Shown piece after piece: positions 4,718-13,107 of a stretch of 41,288 bases of DNA (positions within the stretch are counted from its first letter, which is position 1; every line of letters begins with the position of its first letter). Below the pieces are notes generated by a model, which was not told the origin of the DNA, ran no database searches, and saw only the letters and a list, made by a program, of their open reading frames with translations. The stretch spans positions 1 through 41,288 of the forward strand of contig JAUYFM010000037.1 in NCBI GenBank assembly GCA_030690945.1, in the 5' to 3' direction. The position numbers and the translations under genes were made by a program. The stretch comes from Smithellaceae bacterium. GTDB lineage: Bacteria > Desulfobacterota > Syntrophia > Syntrophales > Smithellaceae.

Positions 4718-4933
4718 ATGAGTACGGAAATTAAAGCCCCCATGCCGGGGAAAATATCTAGTATTACAGTGAGCTTAGGTGATCAAGTTAAAGAAGAAGA
4801 TGAGATAATCATCATGGATGCGATGAAAATGGAAATTCCCGTTTACGCACCAGGTGCAGGAACCATCAAGGAAATCAAAGTCAAGGTAGGCGATTCCGTT
4901 AACGAAGGACAAGTACTGGCCATTCTCGACTAG
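4718..4933 (+). CDS. Free-standing biotin/lipoyl attachment domain (BCCP-like)
   Basis: A 71-aa protein that is nothing but one biotinyl/lipoyl domain. The modification site is the MDAMKME motif with Lys37 as the expected biotin acceptor. Flanking glycine turns (PMPGKI, GDQVKEED, AGTIKEI, VGDSVNEGQ) match the two half-repeats of the fold. AMKM is characteristic of biotin and not lipoate. Such domains carry CO2 for acyl-CoA carboxylases or membrane decarboxylases. No carboxylase or decarboxylase gene lies nearby, so the partner enzyme must be encoded elsewhere. A GGGAGG stretch lies rather far (about 16 bases) from the ATG, and the start is fixed by the domain boundary. Confidence 0.92.
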   Translation: MSTEIKAPMPGKISSITVSLGDQVKEEDEIIIMDAMKMEIPVYAPGAGTIKEIKVKVGDSVNEGQVLAILD

Positions 4934-5083: not shown

Positions 5084-5413
5084 ATGATGATAACTAAAAA
5101 GGATCTCTTTGCCGATATATCAGATGATCTAAAGGACGAACTGATTGAAACCATTCTCCAAACCTCCAATTTTCGTATCGAAAGAATTGTTTCCCATGGT
5201 CATTGTTCAATGGATGGCTTTTGGTACGATCAATCTGACAATGAATGGGTTGTTCTTTTAAAGGGAAACGCTGCGCTTCGTTTTGAAGATCAATCTCAAC
5301 TCATCAGGATGAATCCCGGTGATTACCTTCATATTGAGAAACATGTTAAGCATCGGGTGGAATGGACAAATCCTGAGCAGGAGACCATCTGGCTGGCTGT
5401 CCATTATTCATAG
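5084..5413 (+). CDS. Small cupin-fold protein
   Basis: A 109-aa single-domain protein. The C-terminal two thirds form a cupin: VVLLKGNAALRFED (first strand pair), then MNPGDYLHIEKHVKHRVEW, which carries the second cupin motif PGD...H...HR. A His-rich metal site is suggested by His residues in IVSHGHCSMDG, HIEKHVKHR and AVHYS. Many bacterial proteins of this size and pattern have no assigned function. It has a GGGAG Shine-Dalgarno before the ATG. It is followed by the 12-cysteine gene in the same direction with a 41-base gap that carries a strong ribosome site. A role in metal binding or small-molecule sensing is only a guess. Confidence 0.8.
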   Translation: MMITKKDLFADISDDLKDELIETILQTSNFRIERIVSHGHCSMDGFWYDQSDNEWVVLLKGNAALRFEDQSQLIRMNPGDYLHIEKHVKHRVEWTNPEQETIWLAVHYS

Positions 5414-5454
5414 AGGGTAAAATATATAGTGTACAAACTTAAGGAGGAACAAAC

Positions 5455-5706
5455 ATGCCGGTGATCACTTGCCTTCATTGCGGTGGAAGAACGATGGACG
5501 ACTGCGCATCCTGCAGGGTCAAGCCAGGTAGGGAGGGAATCTGCCAAGCCTGTGGAGGCGATGGTAAGGTAACCATTCCAGAAAACGCCGTCCCTTGCCC
5601 TCATTGTAATGGAAGTACGAGACACGACTGTGCATCCTGCATGGTCGACGGCGATGAAGGCATCTGTAAAGTGTGTAACGGTAAAGGTCGCCTGCTGCCT
5701 GGATAG
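5455..5706 (+). CDS. Small 12-cysteine protein with DnaJ-like CxxCxGxG repeats
   Basis: An 83-aa protein with a strong AAGGAGG site 7 bases before its ATG. It consists of two homologous units of about 34-38 residues, each with three CxxC pairs: CLHC, CASC, CQAC in the first and CPHC, CASC, CKVC in the second. The last pair of each unit matches the DnaJ zinc-finger motif CxxCxGxG (CQACGGDG, CKVCNGKG). Twelve cysteines could hold several zinc ions or iron-sulfur centres. No J-domain or other domain is present. It may be a chaperone-like or redox zinc protein, but I do not recognise a characterised homologue. The spacing to the upstream cupin suggests co-transcription. Confidence 0.8.
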   Translation: MPVITCLHCGGRTMDDCASCRVKPGREGICQACGGDGKVTIPENAVPCPHCNGSTRHDCASCMVDGDEGICKVCNGKGRLLPG

Positions 5707-5832: not shown

Positions 5833-7014
5833 TCAAGCGCCTGAAGTCAGGCTCTGCCAGATGTCGTCCATAAGCCATGGATTGAAAATGCGTGTGCCCC
5901 GGACGTTAAACTGCTGATCACCGTTATAAAAGACAAATCCGGGGGCGATGCCCTTGACACCCAGCGCCTGAAAACGCTCTATTCCTTTAATAAAATCAGT
6001 GGAAAAAGTTGCGGAAGATTTTATCTCGACCGGCGTCAGTGCGCCCTTTTCTCTGATCAGTAAATCAACTTCATTGCCGTGGGAGTCGCGGAAAAAAAAC
6101 ATCTCCGGCCGAATCCCTTTGTTGAGCGCGCTTTTCATGATGTCCGCAATAATGAAGTTTTCATAGAGATTGCCGCGCAGCGGATCGCGGGCCGCCTGTT
6201 CTTCCGTGCTGATACCCAGAAGAAAAGCAGCCAAGCCCGCATCCGTGAAATATATCTTGGGAGACTTGATCACACGCTTTTGAATATTTTCAAAGAATGG
6301 CGGCAGGTCGAATACAATATAAGAAGCTTTCAATACGGAAATCCAGTCTCTGACTGTTGTGGCGGATACACCCGCATCATTCGAGAGAGAAGCCAAATTG
6401 ACAATCTGTCCCACCCGGCCGGCCAGTAGAGTGAGAAATTTCTGAAATGGCGACAGGTCACGCAATTGAATCAAAGCGCGCACATCCCGTTCGACGTAGG
6501 TTTGCAGATAGCTGTTGAAGAACCTGCGCGATTCGATATTTTCCTCATGAAGTCGTGGAAAACATCCACGGACGATTGCGCCAAAAACTTCCTTCTGCGC
6601 AGACGGATAATGTTTCAGTTCGTGACTGGAAAAAGGCCAAAGCGTAAGCATTGCAGTACGGCCTGCCAGCGACTGGCTTATGGCTTCATGCAGTCGCGGT
6701 TGATGGCTGCCCGTCAGGATAAACCGTCGGCGTCTTTTATCCTTATCAACCATTCCCTGGATGTAGGAGAGCAGCACCGGCAGACGTTGTATCTCATCCA
6801 GAATGGCCCCTCCTTCAACCCCGCCTAAGAAGCTCTTGGGATCAGTTTCAGCCGCCATCCTGATATCCGGGTCTTCCATGGAAAAGTAAGGTTTATCCGG
6901 GAACGTCATTATTGCCAGCGTCGTTTTGCCCGATTGACGAGGGCCCAAAATGGTTACGACAGGATACTCCGCCGAAGACCGTCTCAACTCTTCTGAAATA
7001 TCTCGAATAATCAT
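5833..7014 (-). CDS. AAA ATPase with DUF4143 domain
   Basis: A 393-aa protein with an N-terminal AAA ATPase core. Walker A is GPRQSGKTT (about residues 25-33) and Walker B is GGAILDEIQRLP (about 68-79). A LTGSHQPRL sensor-1-like segment follows. The C-terminal half is the DUF4143 type: a winged-helix-like stretch (SLSNDAGVSATTVRDWISVLKAS in split form) and a nuclease-like fold containing EVDLLIREKGALTPVEIKSS. That last stretch resembles the D...ExK core of restriction-endonuclease-like domains. These proteins are common, patchily distributed and functionally undefined. The gene is alone on its strand, with no Shine-Dalgarno visible before the ATG. A toxin, mobile-element or DNA-repair link has been suggested for such families but is not shown here. 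Confidence 0.9.
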   Translation of the reverse strand: MIIRDISEELRRSSAEYPVVTILGPRQSGKTTLAIMTFPDKPYFSMEDPDIRMAAETDPKSFLGGVEGGAILDEIQRLPVLLSYIQGMVDKDKRRRRFILTGSHQPRLHEAISQSLAGRTAMLTLWPFSSHELKHYPSAQKEVFGAIVRGCFPRLHEENIESRRFFNSYLQTYVERDVRALIQLRDLSPFQKFLTLLAGRVGQIVNLASLSNDAGVSATTVRDWISVLKASYIVFDLPPFFENIQKRVIKSPKIYFTDAGLAAFLLGISTEEQAARDPLRGNLYENFIIADIMKSALNKGIRPEMFFFRDSHGNEVDLLIREKGALTPVEIKSSATFSTDFIKGIERFQALGVKGIAPGFVFYNGDQQFNVRGTRIFNPWLMDDIWQSLTSGA

Positions 7015-7254: not shown

Positions 7255-7330
7255 TGGTGAGCCCTGTCGGGGTCGAACCGACAACCTACTGATTAAGAGT
7301 CAGTTGCTCTACCAGCTGAGCTAAGGGCCC
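7255..7330 (-). tRNA. tRNA-Lys (anticodon CTT)
   Basis: A 76-base gene with CCA encoded. The acceptor GGGCCCT pairs with AGGGCTC. The anticodon loop CTCTTAA gives CTT, which reads AAG. The T-loop GGTTCGACCCC segment is intact. It is the last gene of the four-tRNA operon. Confidence 0.95.
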
Positions 7331-7344
7331 TTCTTTTTATCTTC

Positions 7345-7421
7345 TGGTACGCCCGGTAGGATTCGAACCTACGACCAACAGATTCGAAGTCTGCGACTCT
7401 ATCCAGCTGAGCTACGGGCGC
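7345..7421 (-). tRNA. tRNA-Arg (anticodon TCG)
   Basis: A 77-base gene with CCA encoded. The acceptor GCGCCCG pairs with CGGGCGT, with a G-U pair at position 1-72. The anticodon loop CTTCGAA gives TCG, which reads CGA. Bacteria more often decode CGN with a tRNA-Arg(ACG); whether this genome also has one lies outside the window. Confidence 0.94.
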
Positions 7422-7433
7422 ATAATTTATATA

Positions 7434-7511
7434 TGGGGTGAGTGAAGGGATTTGAACCCTCGGCCTCCGGGGCCACAACCCGGCACTCTAACCAACTGAG
7501 CTACACCCACC
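7434..7511 (-). tRNA. tRNA-His (anticodon GTG)
   Basis: The anticodon loop TTGTGGC gives GTG. The acceptor GTGGGTG pairs with CACTCAC. An extra G at -1 (position 7511) faces C73, the usual identity element of bacterial tRNA-His. CCA is encoded. Confidence 0.95.
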
Positions 7512-7521
7512 ATTTTCGCTT

Positions 7522-7598
<77 letters not shown>

Positions 7599-10776: not shown

Positions 10777-13107
10777 ATGGCAAATTCATTAATTGTCGTG
10801 GAATCTCCCACGAAAGTTAAAACAATAAAAAAATTCCTGGGCAAGGATTTTAATGTGGTCGCTTCCATGGGACATATCAAAGATCTGCCGAAAAGCACGC
10901 TGGGCATTGATCTCACAAATGATTTTGAACCCACCTACGATGTCATTGAAGCCAAGAAGAAGACTATTGATGAATTGAAAAAAGCGGCCAAAACCGCCGA
11001 AAATATCTATCTGGCGCCTGACCCGGACCGCGAAGGGGAAGCCATCGCCTGGCATATTTTCGATGTTATCGGCGCGAAAAAAAATAAAAATATCTATCGC
11101 GTTCTTTTTAATGACTTAACAAAGAACACCGTATTGGAAGCCATTAACCATCCGCTTCAACTCGATTTTAATAAATATGAGGCGCAGCAGACGCGCCGCA
11201 TTCTGGACCGGCTGGTCGGTTACCAGATCAGCCCCGTTCTGTGGGACAAAGTCAAAAGAGGCCTGAGCGCCGGCCGTGTACAATCCGTCGCCGTGCGGAT
11301 GATTTGTGAAAGAGAAAATGAAATCAATAAATTTGTACCGGAAGAATACTGGAATCTGGTGGCACAGTTTGAAGGCAGCCATCCGCCGCCTTTTGAAGCG
11401 AAGCTGCTTAAGGTTGACGGCAAGAAGGCAAAGGTCGTAAATGGTGAGCAATCCGCAAAACTGGCCGCCGAAATTAAAAAAGCTTCCTTTATTGTCGAAA
11501 AGCTGGAGAAAAAAGAGCTCAAACGTTCAGCCCTTCCGCCTTTCACAACCAGCAAGCTGCAGCAGGAAGCCTCCCGCTGGCTGAGATTTTCAGCAAAGAA
11601 AACGATGAGCGTCGCTCAAAAATTATATGAAGGCATTGAACTGGGCAAAGAGGGATCAGTCGGTCTCATCACGTATATGAGAACCGACTCTTACCGCATC
11701 GCCGACGAAGCCCTGGCCGCCGTACGGGATTACATCAAAGACAATTATTCATCCGATTATCTGCCGTCGAAGCCGCACACCTACAAGACCGCGCAAAAAG
11801 CACAAGACGCGCACGAAGCGATCCGTCCATCCTCTCTGGCCTACAAGCCACAAGCCATTAAAGAATATTTATCCAATGACCAGTTTAGGCTCTATCAGCT
11901 CATTTGGAACCGTTTTGTCGCCAGCCAGATGAATCCGGCGATTTTTGATCAGACCACTATTGATATAGCCGGTGCCAATTGTATTTTCCGCGCCCAGGGA
12001 CAAGTGTTGAAATTCCCCGGCTTCACTATTGTCTATACGGAAGGCAAAGACGAGAAAGAAGATGAAAATGGCGTGGATAAACTTCTTCCGGAAGTAAAGG
12101 AAAATGAAAAATTAAAATTATTGAATCTGAATACGGACCAAAAGTTCACGCAACCGCCGCCGCGTTTTTCGGAAGCCTCACTGGTACGAGAACTGGAAGA
12201 AAAAGGCATCGGCCGCCCCAGCACCTACGCGGCGATTATTTCCACGATTCAGGATCGTGAATATGCCTGTCTGGATAAGGGCAAATTTTCCCCCACGGAA
12301 TTAGGAACGGTTGTCACGGAGCTTTTAGTGAAAAGTTTTCCCACTGTGCTGGACATGACCTTTACGGCGGATATGGAAAACAAGCTCGATGCCATTGAAG
12401 GCGGCACCAGCAAACGCGTCGATACCCTCAAAGAGTTTTACGGACCGTTTGCTGATGAACTGAAAAAAGCAAAAGAGGAGATGAGAAATGTTAAGCAGGA
12501 AGAAACACCAACGGATCTCATCTGCGAAAAATGTAACTCACCCATGGTAATCAAATGGGGGAAAAATGGACGCTTTCTGTGCTGTTCCAAATATCCCGAA
12601 TGTAAAAACACCATGAATTTCACGCATGATGAAAATGGCAAGGTAAAACACGTGGAGACACAAACAACGGACATTCAATGCAATAAGTGCGGTAAAACCA
12701 TGCTGGTCAAAGAGGGTCGTTTTGGACAGTTCCTGGCCTGCTCGGGTTATCCGGAATGCAAGAATACCATGAACGCCGCGAAAAACGAGAACGGTGAAAT
12801 CATCGCGCAGGAAGCACCGACAACCGATGAAGTTTGCGAATTGTGCGGCAAACCGATGGCTGTCAAACGCGGCCGCTATGGTCAGTTTTTAGGCTGTTCC
12901 GGTTATCCCGAATGCAAAAACATCAAGAAGATGGGCAAGGACGGCAAGATGACGACGCAGGAAACGCCGGCAACCGATGAAGTTTGCGAATTGTGCGGCA
13001 AACCGATGGCCGTCAAGCGCGGCCGCTTCGGTCAATTCCTGGGTTGCACCGGTTATCCCGAATGCAAAAACATCAAAAAAACACCTAAAAATAAATCGGG
13101 TGAATAA
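10777..13107 (+). CDS. topA: DNA topoisomerase I (type IA)
   Basis: A 776-aa enzyme that relaxes negative supercoils. It begins with the Toprim domain (VVESPTKVKTIKKFLG, then the DPDREGEAIAWH metal motif near residue 78). The active-site Tyr lies in ITYMRTDSYR (about residue 308). The C-terminus carries four Cys4 zinc ribbons (CEKC/CCSKYPEC, CNKC/CSGYPEC, CELC/CSGYPEC, CELC/CTGYPEC). Ribbons three and four are nearly identical in DNA at a 150-base offset, which indicates a recent internal duplication. An AAGGAG site precedes the ATG by 7 bases. The 3' end overlaps trmFO by 8 bases, and topA-trmFO adjacency is common in bacteria. Confidence 0.97.
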   Translation: MANSLIVVESPTKVKTIKKFLGKDFNVVASMGHIKDLPKSTLGIDLTNDFEPTYDVIEAKKKTIDELKKAAKTAENIYLAPDPDREGEAIAWHIFDVIGAKKNKNIYRVLFNDLTKNTVLEAINHPLQLDFNKYEAQQTRRILDRLVGYQISPVLWDKVKRGLSAGRVQSVAVRMICERENEINKFVPEEYWNLVAQFEGSHPPPFEAKLLKVDGKKAKVVNGEQSAKLAAEIKKASFIVEKLEKKELKRSALPPFTTSKLQQEASRWLRFSAKKTMSVAQKLYEGIELGKEGSVGLITYMRTDSYRIADEALAAVRDYIKDNYSSDYLPSKPHTYKTAQKAQDAHEAIRPSSLAYKPQAIKEYLSNDQFRLYQLIWNRFVASQMNPAIFDQTTIDIAGANCIFRAQGQVLKFPGFTIVYTEGKDEKEDENGVDKLLPEVKENEKLKLLNLNTDQKFTQPPPRFSEASLVRELEEKGIGRPSTYAAIISTIQDREYACLDKGKFSPTELGTVVTELLVKSFPTVLDMTFTADMENKLDAIEGGTSKRVDTLKEFYGPFADELKKAKEEMRNVKQEETPTDLICEKCNSPMVIKWGKNGRFLCCSKYPECKNTMNFTHDENGKVKHVETQTTDIQCNKCGKTMLVKEGRFGQFLACSGYPECKNTMNAAKNENGEIIAQEAPTTDEVCELCGKPMAVKRGRYGQFLGCSGYPECKNIKKMGKDGKMTTQETPATDEVCELCGKPMAVKRGRFGQFLGCTGYPECKNIKKTPKNKSGE
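12820..13079 (+). repeat. Tandem duplication inside topA encoding two zinc ribbons
   Basis: The 50-codon block starting near 12821 recurs at 12971. The first 45 or so bases (through CELCGKPMA) are nearly identical, and CxYPECKNIKK is shared at the end. The high DNA identity indicates a recent copy or ongoing homogenisation compared with the two more diverged upstream ribbons. Confidence 0.85.

Follow-up and report, generated by a model that had tools for sequence, protein, structure and literature searches.

The motifs of the DnaJ cysteine-rich domain are paired 1 with 4 and 2 with 3. In one report this domain, an antiparallel sheet, uses its four CxxC pairs to bind two zinc ions (PMC4428491). 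ZnJ2, a protein that has a domain of this kind but lacks a J-domain, holds unfolded protein, and its Cys-deficient mutant keeps this holding activity (PMC5818400), so an analogy between ZnJ2 and the protein described here needs no zinc. In anti-TRAP the motif serves protein binding and zinc is required (PMC2896485). Here we analyse a gene for a twelve-cysteine mini-protein, Cys12, from a Smithellaceae bacterium (assembly GCA_030690945.1), and compare it with these systems. The window is the whole 41,288-nucleotide stretch that was analysed, within which the gene and its immediate neighbours are placed as follows.

4718-4933, + strand: biotin/lipoyl carrier-protein gene, 71 aa (Biotin_lipoyl, E 4e-20); a neighbour.
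5084-5413, + strand: cupin gene, 109 aa, separated by 41 bases from the 12-Cys gene downstream (Cupin_2, E 3.2e-7); a neighbour.
5441-5447, + strand: AAGGAGG, the ribosome-binding site of the 12-Cys gene as read from the sequence, seven bases from the ATG.
5455-5706, + strand: the 12-Cys gene (Cys12), 83 aa, ATG start, two tandem units with six CxxC pairs in all, called from its open reading frame, orthologs and codon changes.
5464-5577, + strand: unit 1, with CLHC (5470-5481), CASC (5503-5514) and CQAC (5542-5553).
5587-5700, + strand: unit 2, with CPHC (5596-5607), CASC (5629-5640) and CKVC (5665-5676).

The cysteines of Cys12 lie at residues 6/9, 17/20, 30/33, 48/51, 59/62 and 71/74, giving six CxxC pairs with 7, 9, 14, 7 and 8 residues between successive pairs. 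The full CxxCxGxG motif is found in pairs 3 and 6 only; pairs 1 and 4 read CxxCxGxT, and pairs 2 and 5 are both CASC, without the Gly motif. Twelve Cys (14%) and 13 Gly are present, Phe, Trp and Tyr are absent and His is the sole aromatic. The real window contains one frame with at least six CxxC, and 60 dinucleotide-preserving shuffles of it contain none. The strong ribosome site proposed in the initial annotation is confirmed as the AAGGAGG listed above, which is kept in three related loci (L002, L003 and L004). Two of these, from two other species of the same genus, carry full-length orthologs (genome G050, locus L002, 96% identity; G037, L003, 93%), and the third (G046, L004) carries the first unit alone in a 44-aa frame that is cut after unit 1. 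The 12-Cys open reading frame is a real but rare bacterial gene, matched in 4 of 20 genus genomes, 4 of 51 family genomes and 4 of 155 order genomes. The initial annotation had also raised the prospect of a gene not conserved in any relative; that objection fails, orthologs being present within the genus.

Codon comparisons among the three full-length genes are consistent with purifying selection, the numbers being small. The window and L002 differ by nine synonymous and three changing codons (dN 0.016, dS 0.21), the window and L003 by six and six (dN 0.032, dS 0.18), and L002 and L003 by six and seven (dN 0.037, dS 0.16), giving dN/dS values of about 0.08 to 0.23 from small counts. Eight positions vary among the orthologs and none is a Cys, an outcome with a chance of about 27% by hand arithmetic.

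Beyond the genus, recognisable relatives thin out quickly. At E 0.01 a profile of the three Cys12 sequences matches 10 of 155 class genomes (a set equal in size to the order set of 155), the six additional matches being far weaker; three of them (G063, G120 and G127) are proteins of a six-CxxCxGxG type, and the loci of the remaining three (L084, L085 and L088) contain no frame with three CxxC. Five of the 297 genomes in a phylum sample match Cys12, the four besides the window's own genome at E 4e-7 to 9e-4. A genome scan with Cys12 gave four loci including L005, which was dropped as a relative since its match spans 23 residues of a longer, different protein. No relative was found in viral contigs scanned with the unit and with the Cys12 protein; the best match in a phage collection has E 7e-5 and 34% identity, with a shared layout, and the best among plasmids has E 0.07. 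An origin in phages or plasmids was rejected on these results.

Cys12 arose via tandem duplication of one cysteine-rich unit, as the initial annotation had maintained. At the protein level 19 of 39 aligned residues are identical between units 1 and 2, with all six Cys shared (P = 0.008 if identities are random), and the longest run common to both is DCASC. When the two units of each full-length gene are aligned locally as DNA, the scores are 103, 109 and 115; recoding the window's units synonymously at random 200 times gives a mean of 70 (SD 9, maximum 95). Between the units dN is 0.47 and dS 0.72 by NG86, and dN 0.64 and dS 0.39 by YN00, so that no clear signal of purifying selection emerges from this comparison.

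The same annotation called the units DnaJ-like, a label that proves loose: similarity to CxxCxGxG proteins stands, and the full motif is confined to pairs 3 and 6. Searches of Pfam, NCBIfam and PHROGs with Cys12 returned no significant family, and the best match among PDB sequences has E 0.063. The DnaJ central domain PF00684 (cut-off 32.7 bits), of whose four full CxxCxGxG motifs Cys12 has two, the others being two CxxCxGxT and two bare CASC, is not among its matches up to E 10. There is no Pfam J-domain match either, and the 83 residues contain nothing beyond the Cys units. The only PF00684 match in the window's genome is a DnaJ-type gene elsewhere (C30:50293). The possibility that the gene is simply a truncated DnaJ, foreseen in the initial annotation, was rejected on the unmatched Pfam model, the separate DnaJ-type gene and a weak DnaJ profile score.

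Against profiles built from small proteins, Cys12 resembles the six-CxxCxGxG type beyond the Cys and Gly that the two share. A 17-sequence profile of such proteins (frames with at least five CxxC and under 140 aa) scores Cys12 at 27.0 bits, where 1000 shuffles with Cys and Gly held fixed have a mean of 9.0 and a maximum of 21.2. An 11-sequence version that drops six query-picked sequences, the other 11 having been found via L021, itself a Cys12-query hit, gives 24.1 bits, a score reached by none of 1000 shuffles (maximum 19.9). With a 22-sequence DnaJ profile (four CxxC, under 90 aa) Cys12 scores 16.1 bits, which 8 of 1000 shuffles also reach, and 9.3 for the best domain, which 89 of 1000 reach. 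In the profile alignments Cys12 pairs 1, 3, 4 and 6 fall on four knuckles and both CASC pairs lie in loops. Each unit thus aligns as a putative DnaJ-type zinc-finger unit of two knuckles whose loop accommodates a further CASC pair, which bears out the earlier claim that each unit has one CxxC pair more than a two-knuckle unit uses.

Analogy with DnaJ, ZnJ2 and anti-TRAP favours a reading of Cys12 as a J-domain-less zinc-knuckle mini-protein, derived by tandem duplication, that would serve as a zinc-held scaffold or holdase; we give this reading an even chance. Zinc would hold a chain that has no Phe, Trp or Tyr core as stacked hairpins, leaving knuckles exposed that, like those of the J-less ZnJ2, would bind a client protein or an assembly intermediate. 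Extended to six pairs, the DnaJ plan of 1 with 4 and 2 with 3 predicts three nested sites. Three would also be the most natural metal count: Zn(Cys4) sites nested across the 14-residue linker in the centre, with pairs 3 and 4, 2 and 5, and 1 and 6 joined and the two CASC pairs forming an extra, middle site. Such a three-rung zinc ladder, in which every site bridges both units, is a tentative proposal that we hold distinctly less likely than the general role. If true, it would mean that the single unit of G046 folds only as a dimer or is dead. Two AlphaFold2 models of Cys12 are of low confidence (mean pLDDT 42.2 and 43.4); the first is uninformative, and the second places a hairpin between pairs 3 and 4 (pLDDT 57-61 in residues 31-50), which may, at that low confidence, support nesting.

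The main rival concerns the CASC pairs. According to this explanation the four knuckle pairs hold zinc and the CASC pairs are reversible disulfides that would reduce, oxidise or isomerise the disulfides of clients, or act as an oxygen sensor. It draws on CASC, which forms part of DCASC, the longest run common to the units, and has no Gly knuckle motif, and on precedents in three sources: weak thiol-reductase activity of the DnaJ cysteine-rich domain (PMC4428491), LQY1 presented as a chaperone of the zinc-finger type that isomerises disulfides (PMC5818400) and, by its title, a paper on the oxidizing activity of ZnJ6 (PMC7865324). However, neither a thioredoxin-type fold nor a partner reductase was found beside Cys12, ZnJ2 itself formed no disulfides (PMC5818400), and both CASC cysteines align with CxxCxGxG knuckles in some viral proteins, which suggests a metal role. 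We regard a redox function as unlikely.

The history of the locus bears on a different kind of explanation. Of the 20 genus genomes, 17 have a close match (at least 79%) to the carrier-protein gene, a partial one in a single case. A MacB/FtsX-type gene (the name is our reading) precedes the carrier gene in 12 loci from other genus members, and the stretches fetched from these loci contain neither Cys12 nor any other frame under 200 aa with three CxxC. The window and G037 share this order: the carrier gene follows a MacB/FtsX-type gene, and Cys12 is followed by genes for a 575-aa protein and a DprA-type protein. What precedes the carrier gene in G050 and G046 is instead a gene for 475 aa of the outer-membrane-factor type (again our reading). 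Four tRNA genes (7255-7598) separate Cys12 from the genes for the 575-aa protein and the DprA-type protein in the window, and an AAA_14/DUF4143 ATPase gene (5833-7014, - strand) lies between the 12-Cys gene and these tRNA genes.

The G037 contig with the cupin stops about 110 bases past that gene, and the one with Cys12 starts 128 bases before Cys12. These contig ends carry TCACTACTGTCCCAACGTT and its reverse complement, next to repeated TATAGTG, and by eye suggest one putative insertion element between the two genes. The ends in question, that of L072 on G037:C74 and the start of L003 on C43, thus carry exact 19-base inverted repeats accompanied by the repeated TATAGTG. Further along, topoisomerase I is 98% identical to that of the window in G046 and 97% identical over 288 residues in G050. 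The G037 topoisomerase I (L003:4753-6951, G037:C43) is only 47% identical to the window's gene at 10777-13107, in whose syntenic place it lies, yet the genes next to it, for the 575-aa protein and the DprA-type protein, share 93% and 96% identity with their window counterparts; the topoisomerase gene looks as if it had been replaced in place by a distant homolog.

Distribution and locus history therefore mark Cys12 as a gene that one small group has either gained or kept. They also leave some room for the view that it is a lineage-restricted gene of which little function is left, a duplicated zinc-knuckle gene that is short-lived and in the course of being lost: only 4 of 20 genus genomes carry it, it is cut after the first unit in G046 and a possible insertion element sits just upstream of it in G037. 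Yet it is full-length in three species with its strong ribosome site kept, and the low ortholog dN/dS, small counts notwithstanding, also speaks against decay, so that we rate loss somewhat below the redox explanation.

The initial annotation had further suggested that the cupin gene and Cys12 form a functional pair, which is not borne out. Of the 51 family genomes, 18 match the cupin, which resembles the cupin half of TIGR03890 at a score below the cut-off of that model, and 4 match the Cys gene; the cupin matches span 5 of 7 genera. Fifteen cupin loci (L027-L041, 2.0-3.3 kb each) from 14 family genomes outside the four carriers were scanned in every stop-to-stop frame, nested ones included, and no frame with at least three CxxC was found near the cupin in any of them, some of these loci ending at contig ends and L040 (E 3e-4) and L041 (39 residues matched) perhaps not being true orthologs. 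The neighbourhood thus shows no conserved pair, and a conserved cupin partnership is not supported by these 15 of 15 loci. Co-transcription of the two genes is nevertheless possible in the window, because they lie on the same strand 41 bases apart and no plus-strand promoter or terminator was matched between 4550 and 5850.

Two further explanations reinterpret the cysteines themselves. Cys12 might be a metal store or thiol buffer, metallothionein-like and lacking a folded binding module, as its 14% Cys and its single kind of aromatic residue, His, would allow; the fixed Gly-knuckle spacing, a resemblance to zinc-finger arrays that goes beyond Cys and Gly and the lack of any metallothionein model for it in Pfam or NCBIfam up to E 10 all make this improbable. 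Least probable of all is an iron-sulfur protein, for even if CxxC pairs are able to hold one or more clusters and an anaerobic host is assumed, no Fe-S family in Pfam or NCBIfam matches Cys12 up to E 10 and its Gly-knuckle motif is that of zinc sites.

With the zinc-held scaffold or holdase as the preferred reading, Cys12 can be set among other proteins of its kind. Judged from alignments, its two-by-three CxxC layout is not unique and recurs in viral proteins. A DNA pattern for one unit matched 31 viral contigs, four of them stop-interrupted and three of low complexity; 16 were measured and seven, chosen for at least six CxxC, were used in an alignment (A3) in which the unit matched by the pattern is invariant by construction. 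In these seven viral proteins twelve cysteines stand in register with those of Cys12, at 28-33% identity. The viral CxxC-array proteins (L110, L113, L115, L112, L120, L099 and L096, and also L017) share the layout, whereas their identity to Cys12 is mostly Cys and Gly, their frames run to 117-431 residues and some have extra pairs. At E 0.01, seven of the ten A3 rows match BSD2 (PF25436), six the DnaJ domain and five anti-TRAP, and Cys12 matches none. A profile made from A3 matches 98 of 155 class genomes, and among the matches listed most lie in DnaJ-length frames. The nested zinc plan, if true, would also cover these viral proteins and so define a small fold class.

Cys12 is one variant among the stand-alone proteins with CxxC knuckles, which as a kind are common. 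The A3 profile brings out others: two order genomes, G058 (L170:2396-2746) and G056 (L171:3074-3466, - strand), encode stand-alone proteins of 116-130 aa with eight CxxC pairs, adjoining what we read as a glycosyltransferase-like gene. In a genus member, G045, an apparent prophage encodes a protein of 78 aa that has four CxxC pairs (L169:5012-5248). In itself Cys12 is a small, narrowly distributed gene of predicted function; it led to this wider stand-alone set, most prominently in gas-vesicle clusters.

The strongest non-orthologous match to Cys12 in the phylum sample is a small six-CxxCxGxG protein (L018); L021, which matches less strongly, also belongs to this type. Used as a query, L021 finds matches below 1e-20 in 9 of 297 genomes and, at E 0.001, in 225 of 297 in all, the weaker ones being mostly of DnaJ length. 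All 11 retrieved loci carrying six-CxxCxGxG proteins have a GvpN-type ATPase gene (our reading of the name), and 7 of the 11 have a GvpA-like gene at E below 1e-30; in each of the 3 that were scanned, Pfam confirms GvpA. Proteins of this type are encoded at L073:5529-5858, L074:13416-13925 (- strand), L075:779-1141, L076:7745-8113 (- strand), L079:460-825, L090 and L172:1993-2373 (- strand), and several gas-vesicle loci of the phylum encode two. It is possible that they are a DnaJ-type assembly factor for gas vesicles; the open-licence literature yielded nothing on them or their clients, nor on Cys12. Like Cys12 these proteins (for example L073, L075 and L083, from the same phylum) are small and stand-alone with six CxxC pairs, and L075 shares with it the near-identical run ICQxCGGxGKxxIPExAVxC. 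They differ in having evenly spaced two-knuckle units with mostly full CxxCxGxG motifs, where the spacing in Cys12 is uneven, in matching the Pfam DnaJ domain in 3 of 3 scanned, as Cys12 does not, and in adjoining GvpN-type genes. A gas-vesicle role of Cys12 is not implied, because the window's genome has no GvpA match; among the 20 genus genomes only G050 has one.

The comparison with described systems runs along similar lines. With the DnaJ cysteine-rich domain (PF00684) Cys12 shares CxxC knuckles with Gly, which in Cys12 would likewise be paired across hairpins, but the DnaJ domain has the full CxxCxGxG motif four times and is part of a J-domain protein. The plastid proteins BSD2 and ZnJ2 likewise combine DnaJ-type knuckles with the absence of a J-domain and are of similar size; they have four CxxC pairs, where Cys12 has six, and Cys12 does not match the BSD2 model PF25436 up to E 10. 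Anti-TRAP (PF15777) is also a small bacterial protein with DnaJ-type CxxCxGxG motifs and one that binds another protein; unlike Cys12, with its 83 residues and six pairs, it has 53 residues and two motifs, and its model gives Cys12 8.5 bits (E 2.6) where the cut-off is 32 bits. Set beside all three, Cys12 would represent a free-standing use of the DnaJ-type knuckle, in a form whose altered pair number and spacing are missed by the Pfam models.
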